Position numbers and translations under genes: made by a program
DNA from: a virus
Virus record (IMG/VR): IMGVR_UViG_3300032323_001720
Location: 1 to 64,000 of that record
Direction: 5' to 3' (one strand)
DNA length: 64,000 bases
Notes under the pieces: generated by a model
What the model saw: the letters and a program-made list of their open reading frames with translations, nothing else
Told to the model about the DNA's origin: nothing
Database searches by the model: none
Shown here: positions 16,890-29,745 of the stretch, piece after piece
Layout of the letters: each line of letters begins with the position of its first letter
How positions within the stretch are numbered: position 1 is the first letter of the stretch

Positions 16890-17117
16890 ATGTTAGTCAA
16901 AATAGAGGGCACAAATCTGTATCGTGATACAGAAACTATGGCTTTAATTAACAGAGACACCAAAGAAAAAAATGATTACATAATGAAGTCTCGTTTAATT
17001 AAGAACCAAAAAGATCAAATAAATACCGTAAAAGAAGAAATAGAAGTCATCAAAGGTGAAATGTCAGAAATTAAACAGTTGATGATAAAACTACTCGAAA
17101 AAGGTTCAAATGGCTAA
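16890..17117 (+). CDS. Small conserved phage protein with C-terminal coiled coil (75 aa)
   Basis: ATG at 16890 lies 1 bp after the upstream stop. A longer frame opening at 16860 would overlap the previous gene by 29 bp and is less likely. The sequence MLVKIEGTNLYRDTETMALIN followed by a Lys/Glu heptad-like stretch (IKNQKDQINTVKEEIEVIKGEMSEIKQLMIKLL) matches a small protein commonly found in cyanophage and other marine T4-like structural regions. Function unknown; the coiled coil suggests an assembly or scaffold role. It overlaps the next fibre gene by 8 bp. Confidence 0.75.
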   Translation: MLVKIEGTNLYRDTETMALINRDTKEKNDYIMKSRLIKNQKDQINTVKEEIEVIKGEMSEIKQLMIKLLEKGSNG

Positions 17118-20100
17118 TACAGTTACATCGTTAAGTTACGCAAACACATTTGGTGAGTGGGTTGTTGCGACTAATAATCTTATTAGAGAGAATAATGATC
17201 TTGCTGCAAATGATTATATCAAGAGCACAGGTACAGTTTATCTTAATGAAACGACACAAAACTCACTCCAGGCGAACGGAACTGTAATTGTACAGAAACA
17301 GTTACTTGTACAAGGTACCGGTTCATCTGCAACAGTACAAAATAATTTAAACGTTGGTAGTCAACTATATCTAACAAATGGTACACTAAGTTTAGTTGCT
17401 TCGGGTCAAGCAAACGTTGCTGGTCAAATTAACGGGCAGGCTTCTGGTATTGGCCTGTTTATTGCAAACAATGCACACATTGGTGGTACCACAGTATCTG
17501 CAATAAGACTCACAACAGGAGTATTGCAGGCAAACTCTTCCGTTAATACATCAAACGCTTCGATTGTAAACACGTTATATACCAAAGATTTACAGGCCAA
17601 CTCAACAATCGTTACGCCAACAATTTCTGTAACGGGTACAACGTTTACTAATGCATTACAAGCTAATGCATTTATGAGCGCACCAACAGCTTCGGTAATT
17701 AATACTACATTTACCAATCTGTTGCAAGCCAACACTTCTACAAATACAGCGACAGCTTCTGTAACAGGAACAACTTTTACTGATGTATTACAGGCCAATA
17801 CGTCCTCAAATACTGCAACGGCTTCTGTTACTGGTACCACATTTACGAATGTATTACAGGCTAACACTTCTACAAATACAGCGACAGCTTCTGTCACTGG
17901 CACCACATTCACAAATGTATTGCAAGCCAATACATCTACGAACACAAGATTTTCTTCTGTAACTGGTACAACATTTACTGGTACTTTACAAGCAAATACT
18001 TCTGCATTGGTTGGTACACTACAAGCCAACACATCAGTTAGTGCAGTCTCAATTTCTGCATCAGGAACAACGTTTACTAGTTCTTTACAAGCTAACAATG
18101 TTGCTACCGTAAATTCGCTGGTGGCCAATACAAATGTGGGTGCAGCAACAGTTTCTGCTACCGGTTCAACAACCACAAACATACTGCAAGCCAACACTTC
18201 TGTAAATACGGCGACAGCATCTATTACAGGTACAACATTTACGGATATTTTACAGGCGAATACGACTGCCATTGTAAATTCATTAAGAGCCAATAACGCA
18301 GTAAATACAAACTCGTTACTTGCAAATACTATTACTGTCAATAATATAATTAATGGTAATGCGGCCGCCGGTTATTTTAATAGTTTATCTGTTCAAGGTG
18401 GAGGATTAACAGTTGGTGGCAACTTTGTTATAACTGGTACAACTGTATACACTTCGAATACGTTTATTATTTCTTCAAACGTTTCATCTGCAATTTCCAG
18501 TTATTTTAATGTTGACAGAGGATCTACTGGTGTTGATGCTGCATTCCGTTGGAATGAACCAGCCAAATATTGGGACATGTTGAATGTCACATCAAACACA
18601 TATTTCCGTGTTCTCACAGATGAATATTTGAATGACACACTAACGTCTACCAGTACAACATCTGTTGCAACTGCAAACGCACTTAACGCATTAAATACAC
18701 TTTATAATGCATCAAATACATTCTTGCAAGCTGGTGTTGTTTCTGCTGGTTTGTATGCAAACGGAGCATTCCTAAGAGCTAATGCTGCATACAATTCTCA
18801 AAATACAACTGGCACATACGCAAATAATGCATATGCACAGGCAAATACTGCAACTAATAACGCAGCTGGTGCGTCACTGTATGCTAATGGTGCTTTCATA
18901 CAAGCCAATGCTGCATTCTTGGTGGCAAATACACCAACACATGTAGCCAATTCGGCAGCGTTGTATGCTAATGGTGCATTTGTGCAAGCTAATGCTGGAT
19001 ATACACAGGCTAATACTGCAACCAACAATGCAGCGGGTGCTTCATTATACGCCAATGGTGCTTTTAGACAGGCTAATGCTGGTTATACTCAAGCAAATAC
19101 TGCAACCAACAATGCGGCTGGTGCTTCTCTATATGCCAATGGTGCTTTCACACAAGCTAATGCTGGATATACTCAAGCCAATACTGCCACAACAAATGCA
19201 GCAACAGCAGACTCTAAAGCTGTTACGGCTGGCTCTTATGCAAACTCGGCGTATGGTCAGGCTAATACCGCCACAACAAATGCATCTGTTGCAACCAACA
19301 ATGCGGCTGGTGCTTCTCTATATGCCAATGGTGCTTTCATACAAGCAAACGCAGCATTCTTAAGAGCCAATACGCCAGATGCAATCGCAAACTCGGCCGC
19401 ATTATATGCCAACGGTGCGTTTGTTCAAGCTAACGCAGCTTTCACGACAGCTAATAGCGCATTGAATGCAAGTAATCTTTCTAGTGGTACTGTTCCTCTT
19501 GCTAGACTGAGTGGTATCACAACGACACAATTGAGTGCTAGTGCTGGTATTACGAATACACAGTTGTCGGCCAGCACAATCTCTGGTGTCTCCTTGGGTG
19601 GAACTTTAGCTTCACACACAGCAGGAACATACTTGGTCGGTGATGCTTACAATGGCAGCACATCAAGAACGTGGTCTGTTGATGCCACCACAACAAACAC
19701 CATAAACAAAATTGCTGCGAGAGATGGTAGTGGTGATATTTACGCAACAGTATTCAGAGGGCTTGCAACCAGTGCCAACTACGCTGACTTGGCAGAAAAG
19801 TATTTGGCTGATCAAGAATATGAAGTTGGAACAGTTGTTGCTGTTGGTGGTGAAGCAGAAGTTACTGCCGGTTCATATGGTGATAGAGCAATCGGAGTAG
19901 TATCCGCTCATCCTGCTTATATGATGAACAGTGAACTGGAAGGCGGAACTTACATTGCACTTAAAGGTAGGGTTCCAGTGAAAGTATCTGGCACTGTGCG
20001 TAAAGGACAACGTTTGGTTGCATACAACAATGGTGCGGCTGTTGCAGCAGTACCTCATGCAAATGACGTTTTTGCAATTGCACTAGAATCCAGTGATGAT

Positions 20101-20136
20101 ACTGGAGTAAAACTAATTGAAGCTGTGATTTTATAA
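17110..20136 (+). CDS. Long repetitive tail fibre protein with conserved C-terminal domain (1008 aa)
   Basis: Residues 1-60 (SLSYANTFGEWVVATNNLIRENNDLAAND) are an N-terminal attachment motif common in marine T4-like fibres. Residues about 170-390 are imperfect 20-residue repeats (TASVTGTTFTNVLQANTSTN type). Residues about 540-785 are 28-residue Ala/Asn repeats (ANAGYTQANTATNNAAGASL...). The last ~120 residues (889-1008; ANYADLAEKYLADQEYEVGTVV, then DRAIGVVSAHPAYMMNS, GRVPVKVSGTVRKGQRLVA) form a globular C-terminal domain found on many phage fibres and resembling intramolecular-chaperone or Peptidase_G2-type ends. It probably forms a long side fibre or a hinge-connected fibre. The next genes belong to the radical-SAM operon. 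Confidence 0.85.
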   Translation: MANTVTSLSYANTFGEWVVATNNLIRENNDLAANDYIKSTGTVYLNETTQNSLQANGTVIVQKQLLVQGTGSSATVQNNLNVGSQLYLTNGTLSLVASGQANVAGQINGQASGIGLFIANNAHIGGTTVSAIRLTTGVLQANSSVNTSNASIVNTLYTKDLQANSTIVTPTISVTGTTFTNALQANAFMSAPTASVINTTFTNLLQANTSTNTATASVTGTTFTDVLQANTSSNTATASVTGTTFTNVLQANTSTNTATASVTGTTFTNVLQANTSTNTRFSSVTGTTFTGTLQANTSALVGTLQANTSVSAVSISASGTTFTSSLQANNVATVNSLVANTNVGAATVSATGSTTTNILQANTSVNTATASITGTTFTDILQANTTAIVNSLRANNAVNTNSLLANTITVNNIINGNAAAGYFNSLSVQGGGLTVGGNFVITGTTVYTSNTFIISSNVSSAISSYFNVDRGSTGVDAAFRWNEPAKYWDMLNVTSNTYFRVLTDEYLNDTLTSTSTTSVATANALNALNTLYNASNTFLQAGVVSAGLYANGAFLRANAAYNSQNTTGTYANNAYAQANTATNNAAGASLYANGAFIQANAAFLVANTPTHVANSAALYANGAFVQANAGYTQANTATNNAAGASLYANGAFRQANAGYTQANTATNNAAGASLYANGAFTQANAGYTQANTATTNAATADSKAVTAGSYANSAYGQANTATTNASVATNNAAGASLYANGAFIQANAAFLRANTPDAIANSAALYANGAFVQANAAFTTANSALNASNLSSGTVPLARLSGITTTQLSASAGITNTQLSASTISGVSLGGTLASHTAGTYLVGDAYNGSTSRTWSVDATTTNTINKIAARDGSGDIYATVFRGLATSANYADLAEKYLADQEYEVGTVVAVGGEAEVTAGSYGDRAIGVVSAHPAYMMNSELEGGTYIALKGRVPVKVSGTVRKGQRLVAYNNGAAVAAVPHANDVFAIALESSDDTGVKLIEAVIL
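17620..18270 (+). repeat. 60-bp coding repeats (20-residue SVTGTTF..LQANTS units)
   Basis: About ten imperfect in-frame units, each with a SVTGTTFTnvLQANTStN core; the middle three or four units are nearly identical. The repeats form the shaft of the 1008-residue fibre. Confidence 0.8.
18838..19452 (+). repeat. 84-bp coding repeats (28-residue ANAGYTQANTATNNAAGASL... units)
   Basis: Tandem in-frame units of 28 residues, with two adjacent near-perfect copies at about 18980-19150 and diverged copies on both sides. The same units recur in the 1376-residue fibre at 36676-37123 and 33940-34030, giving long nucleotide matches between two distant genes. Confidence 0.8.
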
Positions 20137-20218
20137 ATTTCGAAATCCTGGGATCCGGCCCGAAAAAAATCTCGGCGCTTCCCAGGTTCCGAAAAGTCAT
20201 TTTTACTTTTTACTTGTT
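20135..20218 (+). repeat. Leader element copy B (structured repeat upstream of the radical-SAM operon)
   Basis: It aligns with 1611-1702 from AAATTTCGAAAT through TCCGGCCC and TCTCGG to CATTTTTACTTTTT. In this copy CCTGGGA (20147-20153) pairs perfectly with TCCCAGG (20180-20186). A shorter inner helix (CCGA with TCGG) is possible. The outer helix lies at the aligned position of TTTTG/CAAAA in copy A, so sequence differs while pairing is kept. The element ends at the ATG of the first operon gene (20219), which has no evident Shine-Dalgarno sequence. It could be a regulatory leader, a terminator-like structure for the fibre gene, or both. Confidence 0.6.
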
Positions 20219-20743
20219 ATGATGACACTAGATGAGTTTGAAAACTTCCTGTACACAGATTTGGTATACGAACAGAAAATAATATCTGTTATCGATGACC
20301 AATCTAGACAAATATTAATTGATGGTATACATCAGTTACACCAATACCCAAACTGTACCATAAAACTGGAACAGATGGAAAAATACAATGAAAGTATTTT
20401 CCAAAAGTGTCAAGAGTTGAAGGCAAAATATTCACATCCAGGTCCAATGACTTGTCACGCATTCCTTGCATTCAAAGGTTCTAAAAGTTTTGGTTTGCAT
20501 ACTGATCCAGACAATGTTATAATAGAATGTATTTTTGGTTCAAAGACATTATACGTTGATACCAAAAATGATAGAAAACATGTGCTCAAACAAGGCGAAT
20601 ATATATTCATACCAGCCAACACAGAACACGAAATCGTTAATGAAGAGAAGTCATTGATATTGAGTTTTGGATTTGAAAAATTTTACGTTGAAAAGATAAA
20701 TTATGGACTTAATGTTCTATTTGAAAACGACAGAAACTTGTAA
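20219..20743 (+). CDS. Cupin / JmjC-like putative Fe(II)-dependent oxygenase (174 aa)
   Basis: The C-terminal half has a cupin-type metal triad: HTD at residues 94-96 and His137 in EYIFIPANTEHEIVN, with the strands between (IIECIFGSKTLYVD, HVLKQGEYIF) matching the double-stranded beta-helix fold of JmjC-like and cupin enzymes. Such proteins bind Fe(II) or another divalent metal and often hydroxylate side chains. The N-terminal ~70 residues are helical and unassigned. Two in-frame ATGs (20219, 20222) could serve as start. It is the first gene of an 11-gene operon and overlaps the following radical-SAM gene by 41 bp. The enzymatic role is inferred from motif and neighbours; a non-catalytic cupin cannot be excluded. 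Confidence 0.72.
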   Translation: MMTLDEFENFLYTDLVYEQKIISVIDDQSRQILIDGIHQLHQYPNCTIKLEQMEKYNESIFQKCQELKAKYSHPGPMTCHAFLAFKGSKSFGLHTDPDNVIIECIFGSKTLYVDTKNDRKHVLKQGEYIFIPANTEHEIVNEEKSLILSFGFEKFYVEKINYGLNVLFENDRNL

Positions 20744-21758
20744 CTTAAATTGTTTACATTGTTTCACTAGTGGTTCCAAAGGTGCAAAGATATATTGGAA
20801 TCATGTCAAAGTCGCTGATTGGTTACGTAAAATGTCTGTGGAAACTCAATATGCACCACATGTTCATTTTGAATTTCATGGTGGCGAACCATTTCTTGCA
20901 GACATTTCTTCACTACAATACGTTTACGACAACTGCCAGAACTTGTGGAAAAGCCAAAGTTGGGGTATCACAACCAATCTGGCTTTCAAACTAGACCAAG
21001 AAAAAATAGACTTCATTATGGGTCCATTGGGTGGCAGAGTCGGTACCAGTTGGGATCCAGATATTCGTTTTGCAAATCCCAAACAGTATGATCTTTGGAG
21101 AAAGAATGTGCAAACACTGATTGATATGGGTGTCGTTGTGAAACTGTTTATCAGCGTAACTAAAGGCACGATTGCAATTGAACCTATCGAACTGCTTGAG
21201 TGGGTAAAGTCACTCGGTGTCAAAGAACTGGCACTGGAACGACTGACTATGAATGGTAGTGCTAAGCAGAACTTACAAATCTTTCCTTCCAATATCGAAC
21301 AGGACCAGTGGTTTCTGAAGATGCACCATCAGAGTGAAGAACATGATGCGAGAAGTTGGTTTGATAATGAATTTCTGGAAACGGTGTATAATAAATTCGA
21401 AACGGGTTTCACCGCAGGCGGAACGTTTTGTAGAGATTGTGAAGAGAAATTATTCACCGTAAATGCAGACGGTACCGTATCTGGTTGTCCCAATTCTGCG
21501 CCAGAATTTCAGTTTGGCACTATAAATGATGATATAAAAAGCCTTATAAATAGTCCAATCAGAACAGAAAACATTGCTTGTGAAAGGTCTAGGGATCCTA
21601 GATGTTATTCGTGTGATGTATTTGAATATTGTGGTGGAGATTGTCATCAACTTGAATGGGAAAATGATGTGTGTGGTGCACCAAAAAGCTTGATGAGATT
21701 CTTAAAAAGTAATCAAAAAAGAAAAGTATGGATATTAAAAGATGGCAACATTAACTAA
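20703..21758 (+). CDS. Radical SAM/SPASM protein, RiPP-maturase-like (351 aa)
   Basis: The radical-SAM 4Fe-4S motif CNLNCLHC is at residues 13-20 (Cys 13, 17, 20), followed by the SAM-binding GGEPF motif (residues 60-64). The C-terminal third is a SPASM-type region with Cys 243, 246, 262, 293, 301, 304, 310, 314 and 324, including CYSCDVFEYCGGDC, enough to bind auxiliary Fe-S clusters. SPASM enzymes are known to mature peptides and proteins (for example sactipeptides, PqqA and anaerobic sulfatases). Its start lies inside the cupin gene and its end overlaps the start of the Cys/His-tailed protein at 21742 by 17 bp. That tight coupling makes the latter the prime substrate candidate. Confidence 0.9.
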   Translation: MDLMFYLKTTETCNLNCLHCFTSGSKGAKIYWNHVKVADWLRKMSVETQYAPHVHFEFHGGEPFLADISSLQYVYDNCQNLWKSQSWGITTNLAFKLDQEKIDFIMGPLGGRVGTSWDPDIRFANPKQYDLWRKNVQTLIDMGVVVKLFISVTKGTIAIEPIELLEWVKSLGVKELALERLTMNGSAKQNLQIFPSNIEQDQWFLKMHHQSEEHDARSWFDNEFLETVYNKFETGFTAGGTFCRDCEEKLFTVNADGTVSGCPNSAPEFQFGTINDDIKSLINSPIRTENIACERSRDPRCYSCDVFEYCGGDCHQLEWENDVCGAPKSLMRFLKSNQKRKVWILKDGNIN

Positions 21759-22308
21759 CCCTATAAGAACACAAAACATCGTTGATAGATTTGCGGATTA
21801 CGTAACTGCAACATCAGCTACGAGTATCGTATGGGGCACAAATGCGAAACCATTTGCTGAAATGCCCGATTCAACTTTCGGTGGTACAACCAGTGGAAGA
21901 GCAATAGGTATAAATGGAGGAAGTATAGGTTCAGGTGTAATAACCGCAGCAAATATTTACAATACTCTCGTTAATGAAACTGCAGCATATACATCAATAA
22001 GAAATTTAAGAGCAATTTTGTTTGTTGATGGCGGCGGTGGAAATACAGGATCCAGAACAACTCCAGGTATCATTTATGACCAAACAGCTGTTGCATATTT
22101 AAATACCAGTTATTTACAAAGTGTTGGAACTCCATCTAATGCTGGAGTTGCTTCAGGAAATGTTGCGTCAGCAGGAAATTTGGAATCATTTTTCAATAAT
22201 TTAAGAACTTCCTATAATACCGCAAGATCAAGTACCGCAACAGTTCAAGTTAATGTTTGTCATGCTTCGTGTCATAGTTCATGCCACGGTTCACGTTCTA
22301 GGAGATAA
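21742..22308 (+). CDS. Candidate modified substrate: virion-like protein with C-terminal Cys-His-x-Ser repeats (188 aa)
   Basis: Residues about 1-165 are Gly/Ala/Ser/Thr/Asn-rich and fibre-like in composition (TNPIRTQNIVDRFADYV, STFGGTTSGRAIGINGGSIG, FVDGGGGNTGSRTTPGIIYD, LESFFNNLRTSYNTARS). The protein ends in VCHASCHSSCHGSRSRR: three CHxS units with Cys at 173, 177 and 181 and His at 174, 178 and 182, then a basic tail. No other Cys is present, so Cys is confined to this tail. The ATG overlaps the upstream radical-SAM gene by 17 bp; the stop is doubled (TAATAA), with the next ATG 2 bp away. A core-peptide-like tail beside four radical-SAM genes suggests that it is the modification substrate. 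A metal-binding tip on a tail protein is the alternative. Confidence 0.72.
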   Translation: MATLTNPIRTQNIVDRFADYVTATSATSIVWGTNAKPFAEMPDSTFGGTTSGRAIGINGGSIGSGVITAANIYNTLVNETAAYTSIRNLRAILFVDGGGGNTGSRTTPGIIYDQTAVAYLNTSYLQSVGTPSNAGVASGNVASAGNLESFFNNLRTSYNTARSSTATVQVNVCHASCHSSCHGSRSRR

Positions 22309-22310
22309 TA

Positions 22311-23027
22311 ATGAATATCGTTGAAACAACTGCACCAATATCTATTGATAATTTAAAAAAATATTTTGCTGACAAAACAACTTTTTTTGTTATCAATTAT
22401 AAAGAAAGTACATTAAAAGGTACAAAATTGTTGACGTATATATCAAACTTGGATATACCGTGCGATATCTCTTTTAAAGACTGTTCAAATGAAGAATGTT
22501 TTGACATGATTAAAGATTATTTGAATACATCCATGATTGTTAATGTATCTTCTTTGGAAAATTCTGTTATTGCAATTCTTCATCAAGCAAAGGAGTTAGC
22601 TCCATTAGTGGATAAAGAATTTATTGAAAGCAACAAAGAAATTATAGATAAATGGGTATCAAAATTGGAAAGTTTGACTCTTTATAATATGCATATCATT
22701 AAAGAGGATGCATTCAAAGAGTTTGTTGATAGTTTTCCAGTTGATGAAACAAAAGAAATGACTGGTGTCAATTTCATAAGTCTCTTGAAACATCACAATT
22801 TTTATTCATTCTTTCAGAACACAAATCAAAATAATTTAAAATTTTATTCACACTATTTTAATGAATATGTTTTTAAAGGTAAGAATTTATTCTCTTACTG
22901 GGCTAATGAAAACAATCCTTTATTTTTACTGACGTACAGTATCGCTGAAGGACTGTTTAAAGAAAATGAATACGTTGAAATGAAAAATAAAACTATTCAG
23001 GAGTTTAAAGATGTTTCATCTGTTTAA
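22311..23027 (+). CDS. Unrecognised operon protein, mainly helical (238 aa)
   Basis: No family recognised. The N-terminal ~90 residues look alpha/beta (KTTFFVINYKESTLKGTKLLTYI, then MIVNVSSLENSVIAILHQ). The remainder is helical and rich in Lys, Glu, Phe and Asn (for example HHNFYSFFQNTNQNNLKFY). There are no membrane segments, signal peptide or Cys-pair motifs; the few Cys (CDISFKDCSNEEC) lie near residues 51-63. The local DNA looks more AT-rich than the structural genes. It sits 2 bp after the Cys/His-tailed protein and overlaps the next gene by 17 bp. A partner, chaperone or recognition role in substrate maturation is a guess from location only. Confidence 0.65.
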   Translation: MNIVETTAPISIDNLKKYFADKTTFFVINYKESTLKGTKLLTYISNLDIPCDISFKDCSNEECFDMIKDYLNTSMIVNVSSLENSVIAILHQAKELAPLVDKEFIESNKEIIDKWVSKLESLTLYNMHIIKEDAFKEFVDSFPVDETKEMTGVNFISLLKHHNFYSFFQNTNQNNLKFYSHYFNEYVFKGKNLFSYWANENNPLFLLTYSIAEGLFKENEYVEMKNKTIQEFKDVSSV

Positions 23028-24048
23028 TAAAGTTTATGTCGTTTCAGATAGTTTGATTGACATAAACTATGATAGAGTAGTACTATCAAAGAGATATGGA
23101 ATCAAAATGTATGAACAACTCGACAACGTTTCACAGGGTGAGTTGTTAATGTATGCAGATGGTTTCGCAAGTCTCGGAAAGTCTTTCGATGTTTTCATAA
23201 AAGAACTGAACGATCATATTACAAAAACAAACAAAAGAATTGCTGTTTATGTTGATGACAATTCTTTCATGGAATTGATTAGTAATTGGTTGTTCAGAAT
23301 GTTTAAAAACATGGACGCAAACACCGCATGGTTTGTTGTTGATTTATATCTAAAGAAATCAAAGAAACACCAATCTTGGAGAAGCAATCATTCTTCTTTA
23401 CAGGTGGAAATATACAAAGATGTTAATGAAACCGATTTCAAGAAGATTTTCAATGGTCTTGCAGTTGATAAAATTGACACAGTATATTCCACAATTAAAG
23501 AACAGATAAGCGTGGAATTTTTAATTGCATCATACAAACATGACGGTTCAAATCTAACACCATTGATTTCTTCTTTGGAAAAATTGTTAACAAGATCATT
23601 TCAGGAAATTTTGTTGGAAATAAAACACACTGTATATAAAAATCAACACAAATCCAACTTCAACATTTCATTTGACGAAACTTTTTTTAGTAATTCAACT
23701 CTTTATAAATCAGAATTTCTCGGAAAAGTTGGCAGTGCAAGTAACGTTGATATCACAAATTCATCCGCAGATGATGTTAAGAAGTTTAAAGACATAGCCA
23801 AACAAGTCTATATTAATTGGGATAAATTCTCCGAGAATTCTCCTATCTTCAATAAACTAGACTGGTTCGATCTGCTTCGTGGTGGTTTAACGAAGGAAGA
23901 AGTTGATAAAATTTTACAAATGGAAAAAGAAGATACTTCCAATATCAGAATGTATTCATCTCACGATGAAGAATTAATCAATATTTACTTACTAGATCAT
24001 ATACTAAATCAAAATTCGGAGCAATTGAAATCATATCAACTTAGATAA
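23011..24048 (+). CDS. Unrecognised operon protein (345 aa)
   Basis: No family assigned. The N-terminus (FNKVYVVSDSLIDINYDRVVLSKRYG) resembles an alpha/beta start, followed by GELLMYADGFASLG and DVFIKELNDHI. A central RIAVYVDDNSFMELISNWLFRMFKNM looks like a strand-helix unit with a possible acidic DD pair. The C-terminal half is helical and Lys/Glu-rich. The protein contains no cysteine and no radical-SAM motif. It overlaps the upstream gene by 17 bp. It is followed after 11 bp by an oxygenase gene. I remember similar N-termini in other T4-like phage hypotheticals but cannot name a family. Confidence 0.65.
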   Translation: MFHLFNKVYVVSDSLIDINYDRVVLSKRYGIKMYEQLDNVSQGELLMYADGFASLGKSFDVFIKELNDHITKTNKRIAVYVDDNSFMELISNWLFRMFKNMDANTAWFVVDLYLKKSKKHQSWRSNHSSLQVEIYKDVNETDFKKIFNGLAVDKIDTVYSTIKEQISVEFLIASYKHDGSNLTPLISSLEKLLTRSFQEILLEIKHTVYKNQHKSNFNISFDETFFSNSTLYKSEFLGKVGSASNVDITNSSADDVKKFKDIAKQVYINWDKFSENSPIFNKLDWFDLLRGGLTKEEVDKILQMEKEDTSNIRMYSSHDEELINIYLLDHILNQNSEQLKSYQLR

Positions 24049-24059
24049 ATCAATGAATT

Positions 24060-24698
24060 ATGAATCATGTGAATCACAACAATTACTATGATTTAGGTTT
24101 TTTTCGAACGAATGTACCTGATGATATTTTAAAATTACTTTGGTCGGAAGTTTATCTGACAGAATGGATAAATGATTCTGAAGAGGGTATTTACAAACAA
24201 ATACCCTCTTGGTACAAAAAGAAAAACAAATATGCATTGAAGAAAGATGGTTCGAATAGATCCGAATATGAACGTCTGATCGGAAAAGAAATTTTCGAAA
24301 AGACTCCAAGTACACTGATAGAAATTGGCAATAAGCTTATACAGAATGAACAATTTGATTTTTTCAGAACGTACTACAAATCACACGAATTAAAATACAT
24401 CGATCTCTGGAATGGTTCAGAGAGTATTGATTACCATTTCGATACAATAAATGGATGTGACACATTCATTCTGATTTACCTTACAGACTCCGAAAAATGG
24501 TCAAGTGAGTGGGGTGGTTCTATAACCATGAAGAAACAGGTCGGCAGTCTTTGTCACTATGAACAAAAAATTCTTCCTGATAATGCAACCATGTTGGTTG
24601 TAAACAATGCAAATCCACTTGTCATGCATAAGGTGGAAAAACTCCACAACACATCAATAAATAGATACACCTTCTCTTTTATTTACAAGTGGTTTTAA
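24060..24698 (+). CDS. Putative 2-oxoglutarate/Fe(II)-dependent dioxygenase (212 aa)
   Basis: The C-terminal half has the facial triad of this superfamily: HFD at residues 126-128, distal His190, and a likely 2-oxoglutarate-binding Arg202 twelve residues later (INRYTFSFIY). Preceding LWNGSES and following EWGGSITM and LPDNATMLVVNN segments fit the double-stranded beta-helix of prolyl-4-hydroxylase-like enzymes. The family hydroxylates protein or peptide side chains among other substrates. The C-terminal ~100 residues are clearly homologous to the 25706 product, so the operon holds an internal duplication. The start at 24060 overlaps nothing; no strong SD is seen. The substrate is inferred only from the operon. 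Confidence 0.8.
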   Translation: MNHVNHNNYYDLGFFRTNVPDDILKLLWSEVYLTEWINDSEEGIYKQIPSWYKKKNKYALKKDGSNRSEYERLIGKEIFEKTPSTLIEIGNKLIQNEQFDFFRTYYKSHELKYIDLWNGSESIDYHFDTINGCDTFILIYLTDSEKWSSEWGGSITMKKQVGSLCHYEQKILPDNATMLVVNNANPLVMHKVEKLHNTSINRYTFSFIYKWF

Positions 24699-24699
24699 A

Positions 24700-25704
24700 T
24701 TGATAGCTGAACATGTATTGAATATACACAATAAAAGGCCAGATACTGGTGAAATTATTGTAACACTGTTTGAATATTGTGATTTGAGTTGTTTATTCTG
24801 CAACCAAGACCACGATAGCTATGAGGGTATCGATACAATAGTCGGTAAATTTGACTCAGTTAAATTATCAATCGACCAACAAATAAAAAAAGGCAAAAAA
24901 CAAATCTCCATACACATGATGGGTGGAGAATTATTCTCGGATACAGTAGAAGATAAAGTATTCGATGACTACGCCGAACTCACCAAGAAATTACTGGCAT
25001 ACGGCAAAGAAATAAACATACCTCTAGAAGTTTCTTTTATTACCAACTTTGTATGGGAAAAGAAACAAAGAATAAAGAAATTTCTGGATGATAACGACAT
25101 ATCGGTTATGACCAGTTATGACCCGTCAGGTAGATTCAACAAAAAAACTTTTGAAGTCTACAAAAAAAACATACAAGATTTCAAAGAATATATAATCAGT
25201 GTCAACGTCATTATGACGAAGCCAAATATAGATAAGTTCATGTCGGACAATGTACCGTTTTTCGATTACTTGTATGAAAACTTCCCAATCTATTTTGATT
25301 ATTATGGACCAGGAAAAAACCATGAATTTCTAATGGCAAAAGACGTTGAGATTCGTGACTTTATGAAATACATGTTTGAGAACTGGAACAATTGTCATCC
25401 GTTCAAAACATTTACTAATAAAACCGCAAACAAAATGTCATGTATGGATACGCATACTGTTATGCCATCCGGAAAATGGGGTGGTTGTGGTTACTTTGAG
25501 AATTTAGAGAAAGTTATACCAATTAAACTTGTAACCGAACAAAAATGGTTTGATGATTACAATTGTTATGAATGTGAACATCTACAAAGATGCACTATGG
25601 GATGTTTTATGAGTAATCATGTTAAAGATATGAGAACACAAAATGAATGTTGGTTAAAAGAAGTTTATGATTATGTTGATTTAGAAATTGAAAAGGAGAA
25701 ATGA
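24700..25704 (+). CDS. Radical SAM protein with Cys-rich C-terminus (334 aa, TTG start)
   Basis: CDLSCLFC (Cys 27, 31, 34) is the canonical CxxxCxxC cluster motif, and MMGGELF (73-79) is the SAM-binding GGE motif. The C-terminal region has Cys 232, 248, 263, 289, 292, 298, 302 and 317, including CYECEHLQRCTMGC, which is SPASM/twitch-like. The gene begins 1 bp after the oxygenase stop. No ATG lies near the N-terminus in this frame, so TTG at 24700 is the best start. One of four different radical-SAM proteins in the operon; it is not obviously a recent copy of the others. Confidence 0.87.
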   Translation: MIAEHVLNIHNKRPDTGEIIVTLFEYCDLSCLFCNQDHDSYEGIDTIVGKFDSVKLSIDQQIKKGKKQISIHMMGGELFSDTVEDKVFDDYAELTKKLLAYGKEINIPLEVSFITNFVWEKKQRIKKFLDDNDISVMTSYDPSGRFNKKTFEVYKKNIQDFKEYIISVNVIMTKPNIDKFMSDNVPFFDYLYENFPIYFDYYGPGKNHEFLMAKDVEIRDFMKYMFENWNNCHPFKTFTNKTANKMSCMDTHTVMPSGKWGGCGYFENLEKVIPIKLVTEQKWFDDYNCYECEHLQRCTMGCFMSNHVKDMRTQNECWLKEVYDYVDLEIEKEK

Positions 25705-25705
25705 A

Positions 25706-26806
25706 ATGATTGTACCATTAATTGAATCGAATAAAGATTTTATTGCTGCCGAAGCGGTTGATTTTGTTCGTAGAACTTATCCAGATTTCAAGTTCGATAA
25801 CGAACTTCTTCGCAGAGATGTGCATATGGTCATCGATATCTTTATGGGTGAGTTGCATATCAAAGGCGGCGTTTATTCTTATGACATTGAGGATGGTCGT
25901 GACATTTCATCTTTTCAATTAAATAGATATATAAAGTCATTCATTGTATTCAGAAATCATTCTGAACAAACAATTAATTGTATTCAATACACTGCTGATT
26001 TAATAAAAAAAGTTATAACAAACCAGAAAGTGGAACCTGTTTATAACACACACTACCAACAATCATACAACAATGAACAAGAATTTGATAAAGAAAAATT
26101 GAATGAATTCGATACCATTTGCAGTTTAATTATTGCAAATTCCGATTCAGGTTCAAACAGAAACTATCACATCGATTTCATTGAAGAATATTTCGACAAG
26201 GGTTTCATAGTTACGAAAATTCCACCACATATACATGAAAAATTGTGGCAAGAAGTTAAAAACACCAAATGGATTGATGCCGAAAAAACAACATATAAAA
26301 AAATACCAGATTGGTATCACGAAAATGAAAAGCATTATGTTGATCCAACAGGTTTCGATAGACCTTCTTATGAAAGAAAAATTGCAGCCGATATTTTTAC
26401 AAATGCACCAAAGAGTTTGATTGATATTTCGGATGAATTAATACGGGATCCATTGTTTGATCCATTACGAATGTATCGTCCACCAAATCCTGTCACAAAG
26501 TTTTTACATTTTTGGAATGGAAGTGAAAATTCACCACACCATGTTGATGCCATTGATGGTTCTGATCTTATGGTGTTTTGCTATCTCACTGAGGCAGAAG
26601 ATTGGAAAGAAGAATGGGGTGGATATATCAACATCTTGAAAGAAGTTAATTCTGAAATTACAAACACTAAAATTGTATTGCCAAATAACGGAGTAATGGT
26701 ATTAGTTAACAACTCCGCACCAATTTTTAAACATGGTATCAGAAATTTAGTTAAAAAAGATGTTAATAGATATACATACATCTTTCATTACACTTGGACA
26801 TACTGA
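25706..26806 (+). CDS. Putative 2-oxoglutarate/Fe(II)-dependent dioxygenase with extra N-terminal domain (366 aa)
   Basis: ATG at 25706 is preceded by AAAGGAGAAATGAA, a good SD overlapping the upstream stop; the longer frame from TTG 25688 is therefore not preferred. The C-terminal ~200 residues are homologous to the 24060 product: HVD at 279-281, His343, Arg355, with shared FWNGSEN, EEWGGYINI and LPNNGVMVLVNN blocks. The N-terminal ~150 residues (for example EAVDFVRRTYPDF, RDVHMVIDIFMGEL, QTINCIQYTADLIKKV) are an additional helical domain absent from the paralogue. It might recognise a leader or carrier. Role: predicted side-chain hydroxylase in the maturation operon. Confidence 0.8.
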   Translation: MIVPLIESNKDFIAAEAVDFVRRTYPDFKFDNELLRRDVHMVIDIFMGELHIKGGVYSYDIEDGRDISSFQLNRYIKSFIVFRNHSEQTINCIQYTADLIKKVITNQKVEPVYNTHYQQSYNNEQEFDKEKLNEFDTICSLIIANSDSGSNRNYHIDFIEEYFDKGFIVTKIPPHIHEKLWQEVKNTKWIDAEKTTYKKIPDWYHENEKHYVDPTGFDRPSYERKIAADIFTNAPKSLIDISDELIRDPLFDPLRMYRPPNPVTKFLHFWNGSENSPHHVDAIDGSDLMVFCYLTEAEDWKEEWGGYINILKEVNSEITNTKIVLPNNGVMVLVNNSAPIFKHGIRNLVKKDVNRYTYIFHYTWTY

Positions 26807-26821
26807 ATCTAAATTTTTGTT

Positions 26822-27892
26822 ATGGAATTAATTATTAAACCAACTGAGAAGTGCAACTTCAAGTGTACCTTTTGTTCAAGTACGCACATCACCGATGATA
26901 AGACAGCGGAGTTGGATCACGAATATATCTTTAAGTTTTTAAAAAGATATCCAGAAACAAACACCATCATTGTTAATGGTGGTGATCCACTAATGATGAG
27001 CCCAGAATATTACTGGAAAATAATTGAACACCTGGAAGAAATTGGTAGTGATGCTCGCATATCATTTACCAGTAATCTATGGCCATTCTATAAGAATCCT
27101 AAAAAATGGACCGAATTGTTTACGCATCCTCGCATGGGTATTACAACCAGTTTCCAGTATGGTGGTGGAAGACTTAAAGGTGACTTGACAGAATTCAGTG
27201 AAGAAGACTTCTGGAACGTCAGTGATATGATGTTGGACGTTGTTGGTTATCGCCCAGACTTCATAAGTGTTATCACTAAGGAGAATGAACATCTGGCCAT
27301 CAAGAACGTTGAACTGGCAAAAAAGATGGATGTGGAATGTAAATTGAACTATGCTTTCAGTAGTGGACCTCCGGTAAAATTTAAAAACATTATCATGGGA
27401 CAACAAGGGCAACCATATTTACTAGCAGATATGTACAAAATATATGTTGAAATATGGAAGAGAAATTTGACACAGTGGGAATATAACACAAAACAGATGG
27501 TCAAGAGACTGGTTGGCCATGCAACCACTTGCCCACAAAATAGAAACTGTGATGCAAACATCCGAACATTACAACCAAGTGGTGATTATTATAGTTGCGG
27601 TGCATTTGGTGATGATAAACTTTATCAAATAAATTTTGAAAAAGAAATGTCAGGTGAAAAGATATTTCCTCTCAGATTTCAACCGGAATTACAGAGTCTT
27701 AAAGGTTCCTGTTTCACCTGCCCAATGTTTCAAATCTGTAATGGTTGCAAGAAAACAATCAAAGATTTAAAAGACCATGACTTGGTAGAAGAACACTGTT
27801 CTAAAATGAAACTGTTGGCACCAGATATCATTGAGTCAAATGGAATGACAGGTATTCTGGAACCTACACCGTATGTTAGAGAATACGCATGA
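26822..27892 (+). CDS. Radical SAM/SPASM protein (356 aa)
   Basis: CNFKCTFC (Cys 11, 15, 18) is the 4Fe-4S motif, followed by VNGGDPLMM (51-59), a GGxP-type SAM motif with Asp in place of the usual Glu. The C-terminal region carries Cys 237, 243, 259, 297, 300, 306, 309 and 326, including CFTCPMFQICNGC, a SPASM-like auxiliary cluster site. It begins 15 bp after the oxygenase gene and overlaps the next radical-SAM gene by 4 bp (ATGA). The catalytic type (thioether, epimerase, C-C linkage) cannot be told from sequence by eye. Confidence 0.88.
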   Translation: MELIIKPTEKCNFKCTFCSSTHITDDKTAELDHEYIFKFLKRYPETNTIIVNGGDPLMMSPEYYWKIIEHLEEIGSDARISFTSNLWPFYKNPKKWTELFTHPRMGITTSFQYGGGRLKGDLTEFSEEDFWNVSDMMLDVVGYRPDFISVITKENEHLAIKNVELAKKMDVECKLNYAFSSGPPVKFKNIIMGQQGQPYLLADMYKIYVEIWKRNLTQWEYNTKQMVKRLVGHATTCPQNRNCDANIRTLQPSGDYYSCGAFGDDKLYQINFEKEMSGEKIFPLRFQPELQSLKGSCFTCPMFQICNGCKKTIKDLKDHDLVEEHCSKMKLLAPDIIESNGMTGILEPTPYVREYA

Positions 27893-28797
27893 ACGTTTCT
27901 ATTAATCCCAGTTACTTCTGCAATTTTCGATGTGACTTTTGTTATCTAACGGAAGAACAACTGTCCGACCAGAAGAAAATAGAACTAGAAAAACTTGACG
28001 AATTATTATCACAGGTACCCAACATCGAACATATAGATTTGTATGGTGGTGAAATTGGCGCATTGAAAAAAGATTATTTCTATGGTTTGAGAGATACAAT
28101 TCGCAAACATTATGGTGGTAAAATCAATATTAATACCAATTATTCCATGTTGCACGATGGTTTCTATGAGGATGATTTTTACCTGAGTGTCAGTTATGAT
28201 TGGGAAGCCAGAGAAAAGTCCGATAGAGTTTACCAGAACATGTTGATGAGTCCAGTACCCATAGCCGTACTGGTCCTGGCCAGTCCTAAAGTACTGGAGA
28301 TGAATGTTGATGAACTGATCATGTCCATGAACTTGTGCAGTAGTGTAAAAAGCCTGGAGATAAAACCTTACAGTACCAACCAGGCGAACCAACATCCTGT
28401 CACACACAAAGACTTTGAGGAATTTGTTAAAAAGTGGGTTGAAAGTCCAGTAAAAAAGAACTTTGAATTCATTAATGAATATTATATTGAAGATGTTTTG
28501 GATGGTAACCGAAATGCGTTCAGTGATGATCACATCTATATCACACCAAATGGCAAGTTTGCTGTATTAGAATTCGATCTAAACGACAATGAATATTTCC
28601 TGGAACTGGATAGTTGGGATGACTATGTGAAATGGACACAAAAAGAAAAACGAAGTAACGTTAGTGACATTTGTAAAAGTTGTGAATTCTATGGCAAATG
28701 TCTGACAGAACACTACCGTTATGTGAAGGATCTAAATAATAGTTGCAATGGTTATAAATTTTTAATAGAGTGGTATCGTGAACGACTGGAAAATTAG
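27889..28797 (+). CDS. Radical SAM protein with short Cys-rich C-terminus (302 aa)
   Basis: CNFRCDFC (Cys 11, 15, 18) gives the cluster motif and LYGGEIG (51-57) the GGE motif. The C-terminus has a reduced set of Cys (262, 265, 271, 286; CKSCEFYGKC), a twitch-like half of the SPASM arrangement. It overlaps the preceding radical-SAM gene by 4 bp and the following small gene by 20 bp. The nucleotide sequence around 28250-28300 contains three copies of the CCAGTAC/GTACTGG heptamer (two forming an inverted repeat), probably coincidental within coding DNA. Confidence 0.87.
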   Translation: MNVSINPSYFCNFRCDFCYLTEEQLSDQKKIELEKLDELLSQVPNIEHIDLYGGEIGALKKDYFYGLRDTIRKHYGGKININTNYSMLHDGFYEDDFYLSVSYDWEAREKSDRVYQNMLMSPVPIAVLVLASPKVLEMNVDELIMSMNLCSSVKSLEIKPYSTNQANQHPVTHKDFEEFVKKWVESPVKKNFEFINEYYIEDVLDGNRNAFSDDHIYITPNGKFAVLEFDLNDNEYFLELDSWDDYVKWTQKEKRSNVSDICKSCEFYGKCLTEHYRYVKDLNNSCNGYKFLIEWYRERLEN

Positions 28798-29176
28798 ACA
28801 AGAAATTTATCATAGACTTAATACCGATTTTGATGATGATTTAAAAACTAAATCGGTTGAAATGTCGGATGATATTGTGGGTAATGCTGTTCGTTATTTC
28901 AATGAACGCGATATCGGATGGATCTATCCAGCCAAAAGTTACATGGTTGGAATATGTTATGCACGTTGGCTATCCGAACATTTTGGTGGAGAACCATTAG
29001 ATTATCTCAAAGATCAGAGTTTATTATATCACAATGATCCATATTTTAATAATTATGAACTTGATCAAAAAACATACGATGAAATATTAAGTAAAATCAA
29101 TCATTGGAATTTTGAGGAAAAAAATGGTTTGGTTCCTGATGTGAAAAAATATTTCACAGAAGAGTTTATGTTATGA
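28778..29176 (+). CDS. Unrecognised small operon protein (132 aa, GTG start)
   Basis: GTG at 28778 gives MNDWKIRQEIYHRLN and overlaps the upstream radical-SAM gene by 20 bp. No ATG lies nearby in frame. The protein is compact and helical, with CYARWLSEHFGGEPLDYLKDQSLLYHNDPYFNNY in the middle (residues about 54-87) and a W/F-rich end. Similar segments occur, as I remember, in other phage hypotheticals near 2OG-oxygenases, but no function is known to me. It shares an ATGA overlap with the following oxygenase gene. Confidence 0.65.
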   Translation: MNDWKIRQEIYHRLNTDFDDDLKTKSVEMSDDIVGNAVRYFNERDIGWIYPAKSYMVGICYARWLSEHFGGEPLDYLKDQSLLYHNDPYFNNYELDQKTYDEILSKINHWNFEEKNGLVPDVKKYFTEEFML

Positions 29177-29745
29177 TTCAAAATTTGTGGCCAACACCAC
29201 TACTAAAAACAAATTTTTCGGAAGAAATAAGAAATGATTTATTGAGTCATTTTTTAACAAAATATGACTTTTTAAATTCTTCCGGCGATCTCAGTAATGT
29301 AAACATTTTTGACGATGAATCGGATATTATCTATAAGTTTACTGATGAGGTTGTGTTACCACTTTTTGATACCTTTCTGAAAGAGAGTTTGGGGAAAGGT
29401 ATGTTAAGTTGGAAAAGTTATAAACTAAAAGGTTGGCTGACTGGATCAGGAAAAAACTACGCCTCAAATTTACACAACCATAAGGGCGCAGTAATCTCTT
29501 CAGTATTTTATTTGCTTTGTGAAGAAGTGGATGTTGGTGGTGAAATTTACTTCACCGACCCCAGACAAAATTCAAATAGAGGATATGATAATCAATTCTC
29601 CAAATGGTTTGATCATCTTTCTTTAACACCAAAAAGTGGTGATGTTGTGATTTTTCCAAGCTTTTTATATCATTATGTTGCAACTTATAGAGGAAACATC
29701 AGAATAGCCATGCCTGTTGATTTGTTTCTCTATACGAACGAGTGA
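29173..29745 (+). CDS. Putative 2OG-Fe(II) oxygenase of the PF13759-like type (190 aa)
   Basis: The product begins IQNLWPTPLLKTNF, the usual opening of this oxygenase group. It has LHNHKGAVISSVFYL (His101, His103), GGEIYFTDPR (122-131), and LTPKSGDVVIFPSFLYHYV (His167) with a downstream Arg (RIAM, 177). These are the iron and co-substrate positions of the PF13759-type double-stranded beta-helix enzymes, which are common in T4-like marine phages. It is the last gene of the operon and overlaps the preceding gene by 4 bp. Being a common phage family, it may have joined the cluster from the general phage gene pool. It is a different subfamily from the 24060/25706 pair. Confidence 0.82.
   Translation: MIQNLWPTPLLKTNFSEEIRNDLLSHFLTKYDFLNSSGDLSNVNIFDDESDIIYKFTDEVVLPLFDTFLKESLGKGMLSWKSYKLKGWLTGSGKNYASNLHNHKGAVISSVFYLLCEEVDVGGEIYFTDPRQNSNRGYDNQFSKWFDHLSLTPKSGDVVIFPSFLYHYVATYRGNIRIAMPVDLFLYTNE

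Follow-up and report, generated by a model that had tools for sequence, protein, structure and literature searches.

Why does a virus carry four radical S-adenosylmethionine (SAM) enzymes among its tail genes, and on what would they act? This question is raised by a block of genes at positions 20219-29745 of IMG/VR record IMGVR_UViG_3300032323_001720, a virus contig of 69,901 bases, of which we analysed positions 1 to 64,000 (the 64,000-nucleotide window). An earlier reading of the letters alone (the sequence-only reading) had described the block as an eleven-gene operon for post-translational modification, with all junctions overlapping or within 15 bp. Our check of the open reading frames (ORFs) in the window found all of them at the coordinates it gave, but they number 12 rather than 11, all on the same strand, and every junction is as tight as had been claimed. 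We believe, with a probability of roughly 0.7, that the operon is a self-contained maturation system for the product of its third gene (21742; genes are named by their first position), here called the CH-tail protein, and that this protein, uncleaved, becomes part of a fibre, baseplate or adhesin structure. A dedicated modification system with the 21742 protein as its substrate is still what the sequences suggest, although the invariant motif at the end of that protein had been missed.

The body of the CH-tail protein has diverged among its homologues, and its end is nearly constant: CHxSCHxSCHxS-RxRR and then the stop codon. A tblastn search with the protein against phage records gave no match, the body being too divergent and the tail too short; homologues were recovered by synteny and DNA pattern. 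Loci L007-L125 were picked by a motif pattern and L126-L205 through radical SAM enzyme C (rSAM-C, 26822) alone, and the latter show the same tail end, the exception being L177 (CHSSCHYSCHSSCHGDGPGNGGGV). In a relaxed tail search for CH, 1-3 residues, CH, 1-3 residues and CH, the last CH lies at a constant distance from the C-terminus in 213 of 215 ORFs, and nearly all end in RxRR. Across an alignment of 71 homologues, themselves picked by the motif, invariance is confined to C, H, C, H, C, H, R, R and R of the tail. In 122 non-redundant proteins chosen in the same way, the second residue after each histidine is serine in 115, 104 and 115 cases, and the 66 tail peptides of this set are encoded by 121 different DNA versions, a sign that selection acts on the peptide. 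In phage tails the final C-H-x-S-R hardly varies. There are also variants: the CH repeats are expanded in L121, bacteria can have two-unit tails (CHGNFPPPCHGSRGRR and similar), and L344 and L353 have lost the third cysteine and kept HxSRxRR. L007, L020, L025, L057 and similar loci encode two adjacent small tail proteins (~125-145 aa) with another body and the same C-terminal tail, and in phages of this type the radical SAM genes are found elsewhere on the contig.

The sequence-only reading had named the occurrence of radical SAM genes without the 21742 family as a point that would count against it. Among the 80 loci that rSAM-C alone retrieved, the canonical tail gene is present in 62, and in four others it lies just beyond the fetched stretch or takes a variant form; the 14 with no tail match are on records of 7 to 68 kb, most of which end close to the operon. 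In the other direction, radical SAM relatives lie inside the fetched stretch in 88 of 115 motif-anchored loci, and those without them nearby are mostly the variant with two small tail proteins. A search of whole records of this variant gave an rSAM-C-type match (E <= 0.001) in 18 of 25, 17 of them strong and some distant from the tail genes, and the records without a match are fragments of 5-37 kb. The motif pattern also occurs in 88 stretches of 257 Gb of bacterial and archaeal contigs, directly before a stop in 17. Radical SAM relatives are encoded within 8 kb in 12 of these 17 versus none of the other 71 (Fisher 3e-11); as for the remaining five, L246 and L265 are from a genome with rSAM-C elsewhere, L218 is a 29-residue frame, L252 is the end of a short contig, and the last is L292. 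From this linkage, the CH tail is the likely substrate of the radical SAM and oxygenase set. The target that had been proposed, the 21742 protein, can be narrowed by tail conservation and linkage to its last 16 residues.

The genes of the operon and the fibre gene before it are the following.

17110-20136, + strand: fibre protein directly upstream (phrog_22593 and phrog_19602, tail fiber).
20219-20743, + strand: cupin / JmjC-type Fe(II) oxygenase (Cupin_2 31.1 and JmjC_2 26.9 bits, both above the Pfam cut-offs).
20703-21758, + strand: radical SAM/SPASM enzyme A, rSAM-A (SPASM; phrog_1802, E 9e-64).
21742-22308, + strand: CH-tail protein (folded domain at about residues 8-172; presumed substrate peptide CHASCHSSCHGSRSRR, residues 173-188).
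22311-23027, + strand: conserved partner protein with no known fold (phrog_20767, E 7e-70).
23011-24048, + strand: conserved partner protein (iterated hidden Markov model, 125 loci).
24060-24698, + strand: 2-oxoglutarate (2OG)-Fe(II) oxygenase (PF13640, 2OG-FeII_Oxy_3, E 1.5e-5, just below the cut-off).
24700-25704, + strand: radical SAM enzyme B, rSAM-B (TTG start; phrog_1802, E 9e-42).
25688-26806, + strand: 2OG-Fe(II) oxygenase with an extra N-terminal region (TTG start; PF13640, E 1.9e-5, just below the cut-off).
26822-27892, + strand: radical SAM/SPASM-like enzyme C, rSAM-C (Pfam Radical_SAM above the cut-off; PHROG 1802).
27889-28797, + strand: radical SAM enzyme D, rSAM-D (PF04055, 33 bits; phrog_1802, E 2e-34).
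28778-29176, + strand: small conserved protein (phrog_20737, E 8e-53; 92 loci).
29173-29745, + strand: 2OG-Fe(II) oxygenase (phrog_81, E 3.5e-25).

The same cluster is found in isolated jumbo phages, namely Burkholderia phages FLC6, FLC8 and SURPRISE13, Agrobacterium phage Atu_ph07, Sinorhizobium phage Phosso and Pseudomonas phage pPa_SNUABM_DT01, whose rSAM-C proteins are 58-64% identical to that of the window. Their clusters begin with cupin, rSAM-A and tail protein, and the order is mostly as in the window across the four host genera; the 20219 cupin has its equivalent position there, and the rSAM-A orthologues of four jumbo phages keep the C-terminal cysteines. A first search of IMG/VR found relatives of rSAM-C, the best marker of the system, encoded by about 317 viral stretches. 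Across 204 loci the recurrent order is cupin, rSAM-A, tail protein, 22311 family, 23011 family, rSAM-B, rSAM-C and rSAM-D, with a varying number of oxygenases. In most loci the tail gene has rSAM-A and a 22311-family gene as its neighbours; this family is present in 96 of 115 tail-anchored loci. Unrelated phages thus share both the genes and their order, and the operon is not a chance arrangement.

All four radical SAM enzymes combine an N-terminal CxxxCxxC motif (CNLNCLHC, CDLSCLFC, CNFKCTFC and CNFRCDFC) with a superfamily match. PHROG 1802 (radical SAM) matches each of them with E values from 2e-34 to 9e-64; Pfam Radical_SAM is above its cut-off for 26822 and 27889 and below it for 20703 and 24700, rSAM-B being clear at the PHROG level only. 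SPASM is above its cut-off in 20703, and conserved C-terminal cysteines, the mark of SPASM-type auxiliary clusters, are found in rSAM-A and rSAM-C. By family matches, the four proteins that had been noted for their metal triads are one JmjC-type cupin, a possible His or Arg hydroxylase, and three 2OG-Fe(II) oxygenases, and the one Cys/His-tailed protein (21742) and three unknown proteins (22311, 23011 and 28778) make up the rest.

The operon is set in a T4-like morphogenesis module with baseplate wedge genes; the fibre gene is directly upstream of the operon, and downstream there is an L-shaped-fibre-assembly-like protein followed by tail sheath, terminase and scaffold (PHROG-type matches). 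A fibre-type protein is the usual upstream neighbour of the cluster; the N-terminus type of 17110 (TNTIDEWR / TDTLEQMR / ANTFGEW) precedes the cupin gene in many related phages, and several phage loci encode proteins bearing the S74 domain close to the cluster. The fibre and cupin genes are separated by 82 bp, a gap that holds a stable hairpin (CCTGGGA...TCCCAGG at 20138-20194, -25.4 kcal/mol, z -3.0). No Rfam family was found anywhere in the window, this hairpin included, and a T4-type late promoter (TATAAATA) is not enriched.

Some clusters contain further genes. Two dihydrofolate-reductase-like genes lie inside the cluster of Burkholderia phage SURPRISE13 (L003:10852-12029). Directly 3' of the radical SAM cluster of a 149-kb viral contig (L130:13068-14078) there is an IscU gene (NifU_N, 172 bits) and then two IscA/ErpA-like genes, which may supply iron-sulfur clusters to the radical SAM enzymes. 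Extra radical SAM proteins that have, or apparently have, a B12-binding domain occur in four clusters (L305:15572-17308, L304:15830-17740, L130:8356-10026 and L345:13568-15277), and substrate methylation is a possible role for them. The added cobalamin-binding radical SAM, dihydrofolate-reductase-like or IscU/IscA-type proteins fit a demanding iron-sulfur enzymology. Glycosyltransferase-like proteins, judged by eye, are also encoded within the cluster (L305:9152-10726, which has no Pfam match, and L091:4273-4962).

To gain insight into the CH-tail protein, we predicted its structure using AlphaFold2 with 71 homologues. The model has a predicted local distance difference test score (pLDDT) of 87.9 and a predicted template modelling score of 0.81, and the last two blocks, which form the CH tail, score 65 and 55, as would be expected of a folded carrier with an accessible substrate peptide. 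A fold search found no PDB match for it, and in a viral fold library it had few good matches, namely two entries of similar size, the Atu_ph07 homologue, and three large Myoviridae ctijX18 proteins. The 22311 protein also has a confidently predicted fold (pLDDT 90) with no PDB match.

In the mechanism that we propose, the 22311 protein would present the substrate to the enzymes, and the four radical SAM enzymes, the iron oxygenases and three system-specific partners would modify the exposed (CHxS)3-RxRR tail. Ring-forming links might run from each histidine to Cβ of the residue two positions on (H-x-S), the cysteines might be modified further or bind metal, and the JmjC-type cupin and 2OG enzymes might hydroxylate histidine or arginine. 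Radical SAM enzymes that link His to Cβ at i+2 are known for HaaB, YhhB and dynobactin (PMC11002830), and by analogy this cross-link is the strongest chemical precedent that fits an H-x-S tail. Among the genes of the window operon, none was recognised as a protease or an exporter (using Pfam and PHROGs, and NCBIfam on the first ten genes), and for this reason we expect the product to stay whole. As part of a fibre, baseplate or adhesin, it may help to bind or breach the envelope of the target cell.

The system is not confined to phages. As the sequence-only reading had missed, rSAM-C (E 1e-60 or better) is also present in 17 of 369 Bdellovibrionota genomes, so the system is not solely a matter of virion biogenesis. 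One cluster lies inside a 4.15-Mb contig (G158) and others are beside chromosomal genes such as pyruvate kinase, which argues that these are not phage contigs, though they are possible prophage remnants. Beside the bacterial cluster there is a protein that joins a prepilin-like N-terminus to a Peptidase_S74 tail-fibre chaperone at its C-terminus. Its neighbours are a partner of ~190 residues, whose sequence ends in GRHWVKVK or a similar string, and a small protein that begins with a twin-arginine-like stretch. The prepilin/S74 neighbours are usual rather than universal, and the ~190-residue partner, mostly within ~12 kb of the system, is found in 15 of 18 system-carrying genomes versus 1 of 20 listed genomes without rSAM-C (p about 1e-6). 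To us, the prepilin/S74 context independently supports a role in a fibre or adhesin. The prepilin-S74 proteins themselves (L216:5958-7142, L305:4658-5692, and similar genes in L341-L345 and L347) are an unusual pilus-fibre chimera. In a Bdellovibrionota genome that lacks rSAM-C (G064, L348:6809-10684), the same fibre-partner and twin-arginine-like genes lie beside about seven distant radical SAM genes and a different Cys-rich protein ending in CICNTDCACNAVCTCHNDCGCHY, possibly a parallel system with another tail. A first rSAM-C tree had the phages nesting in one clade inside Bdellovibrionota; this was dropped after wider sampling gave mixed groups with low support, so that no direction of transfer follows from the trees.

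There are several known systems with which the operon can be compared. The Hxs system, whose chemistry was not found in the literature we searched (mostly without subscription papers), similarly pairs radical SAM maturases, HxsB and HxsC, with an H-x-S-repeat protein, HxsA. However, the operon scores 36.1 bits against HxsB (cut-off 370) and 28.7 bits against HxsC (cut-off 267.9), far below equivalog level. As to HxsA, the CH tail has HxS at each of its three repeats, but the 21742 protein matches no NCBIfam family at E 0.1. Unlike Hxs, the operon has a cysteine before each histidine of the tail, a C-terminal RxRR, oxygenases and three unique partners. The dynobactin and triceptide maturases (DynA, HaaB and YhhB) are likewise radical SAM/SPASM enzymes, and the NCBIfam model closest to rSAM-C is that of DynA (E 1e-12), but rSAM-C reaches 48 bits versus a cut-off of 450, and the products of those enzymes are short peptides. 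The anaerobic sulfatase-maturating enzyme (anSME) and QhpD modify a residue in a retained protein, as is proposed here, but they work as one enzyme per substrate on another motif, and scores are far below their family cut-offs (46.7 and 46.3 bits versus 349.45 for anSME). Hxs, anSME and the standard cluster classes of ribosomally synthesized and post-translationally modified peptides (RiPPs) were all rejected for low scores and missing parts. As the score tests for Hxs, anSME and the named RiPP maturases failed, we take the operon to represent a new form of radical SAM peptide/protein maturation, in which the novelty is the substrate class and the setting; radical SAM maturation itself is known.

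The enzyme genes have been seen before. In FLC6, S13, RP12/RP31 and marine T4-like phages they are annotated as cupin, radical SAM, Fe-S oxidoreductase and 2OG oxygenase, and the parts of those papers available to us treat them as accessory, other or Fe-S genes (PMC8066314, PMC11898562, PMC5468394, PMC5332604). In the literature we searched, mostly without subscription papers, the tail motif strings that were tried do not occur, nothing relevant joins phages and radical SAM enzymes with RiPP or virion modification, no case came up of a protein in a phage structural module being tailored by radical SAM enzymes, and we found no paper describing the system, in agreement with the sequence-only reading. 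On the bacterial side, the mosaic adhesive trimeric (MAT) fibres of Bdellovibrio, with their S74 chaperone, are a case of a predator using phage-like S74 fibre modules (PMC10769870, seen in part). The Bdellovibrionota prepilin chimeras are MAT-like in their S74 domains, which carry motifs of the SDxxxK type. In the accessible text of that paper, a signal peptide and a beta-rich domain are described for MAT proteins, and a prepilin N-terminus or linked radical SAM genes are not mentioned.

Among other explanations, the one that survives best, although we consider it unlikely, is a phage-borne RiPP, in which the folded N-terminal domain would be a large leader and the modified C-terminal peptide would be cleaved off as a diffusible toxin or signal. 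The tail protein and operon do have the layout of a precursor with a conserved C-terminal core and tailoring enzymes, the enzymes resemble RiPP maturases such as PapB and DynA weakly, at superfamily level, and the CH repeats can expand, as in L121. Against this stand the lack of a recognised leader peptidase or exporter in the window operon, a body that is a conserved, confidently folded domain rather than a short leader, and a location among virion structural genes, or beside a prepilin/fibre module in bacteria. No RRE-type family was matched in Pfam or NCBIfam, and the 22311 fold, as noted, has no PDB counterpart. The main chemical rival is formylglycine formation, since the solved structures closest to rSAM-A and rSAM-C alike are anSMEs. 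The two operon enzymes would then oxidise tail cysteine to formylglycine, giving an electrophilic tip on the same substrate, and the nearly invariant C-x-x-S-R of phage tails does resemble the sulfatase motif C-x-P-x-R. We regard this as improbable: the tail lacks the proline of C/S-x-P/A-x-R, its histidines are as conserved as its cysteines, L344 and L353 dispense with the third cysteine and keep HxSRxRR, and at least four radical SAM enzymes are kept where one such enzyme would be enough. It is less probable still that the tail is a mere metal-binding or iron-sulfur tip and that the enzymes have their targets elsewhere, in other virion proteins, glycans or nucleic acids. The peptide is rich in cysteine and histidine, and metal bound through histidine is known from the tips of phage spikes and fibres, but the radical SAM genes are tightly linked to the exact C-terminal motif, even on bacterial chromosomes, and RxRR is conserved equally with the cysteines and histidines. 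Finally, auxiliary metabolic genes serving small-molecule or host metabolism, a grouping given to radical SAM genes of T4-like marine phages under Fe-S metabolism in the accessible part of one study (PMC5332604), are the least credible explanation, as none of the four enzymes has a metabolic orthologue at the NCBIfam cut-off and the CH-tail partner is near-obligatory.

Mass spectrometry of Atu_ph07 identified 131 virion proteins, mostly in three clusters, one of which spans coding sequences (CDS) 170-215 (PMC6102473, seen in part). The CH-tail protein of this phage is gp170 (YP_009611835), the first gene of that cluster, and the numbering agrees with the record. Together with the place of the gene in a structural module, this is suggestive only of its presence in the virion. 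The virion proteomics of RP31 does not list small ORFs in the available text (PMC5468394), and a link to the CH-tail protein could not be made there. Several points weigh against our interpretation. All three Atu_ph07 clusters are exactly 46 genes long, and their limits may be arbitrary (PMC6102473). The radical SAM enzymes match known peptide maturases at the superfamily level only, and the oxygenases might have targets other than the tail. As controls for the ~190-residue partner, the 20 genomes used were the first listed rSAM-C-negative Bdellovibrionota rather than a random sample. We infer the substrate role, the bonds made and the location in the particle from sequence, linkage and predicted fold.

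A broader idea, which we put forward tentatively and hold to be somewhat doubtful, is that jumbo and T4-like phages and predatory Bdellovibrionota have in common a novel cross-linked, possibly metal-binding tip, made from a genetically encoded (CHxS)n-RxRR tail by a dedicated radical SAM/oxygenase assembly line and carried on a phage tail fibre or a prepilin-S74 pilus, that engages or breaches the Gram-negative outer membrane, and that the module has been passed between them. If our interpretation is true, the particles of such phages contain a chemistry that is encoded in the genome, built by enzymes and missed by annotation from sequence, and predatory bacteria use the same device. It would name a substrate for hundreds of unassigned phage radical SAM genes, offer a reason for the IscU/IscA-type genes in some of these phages, and supply a new peptide chemistry on a folded carrier protein. 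It would also let the engagement and breaching of the envelope by such phages and predators be tested.

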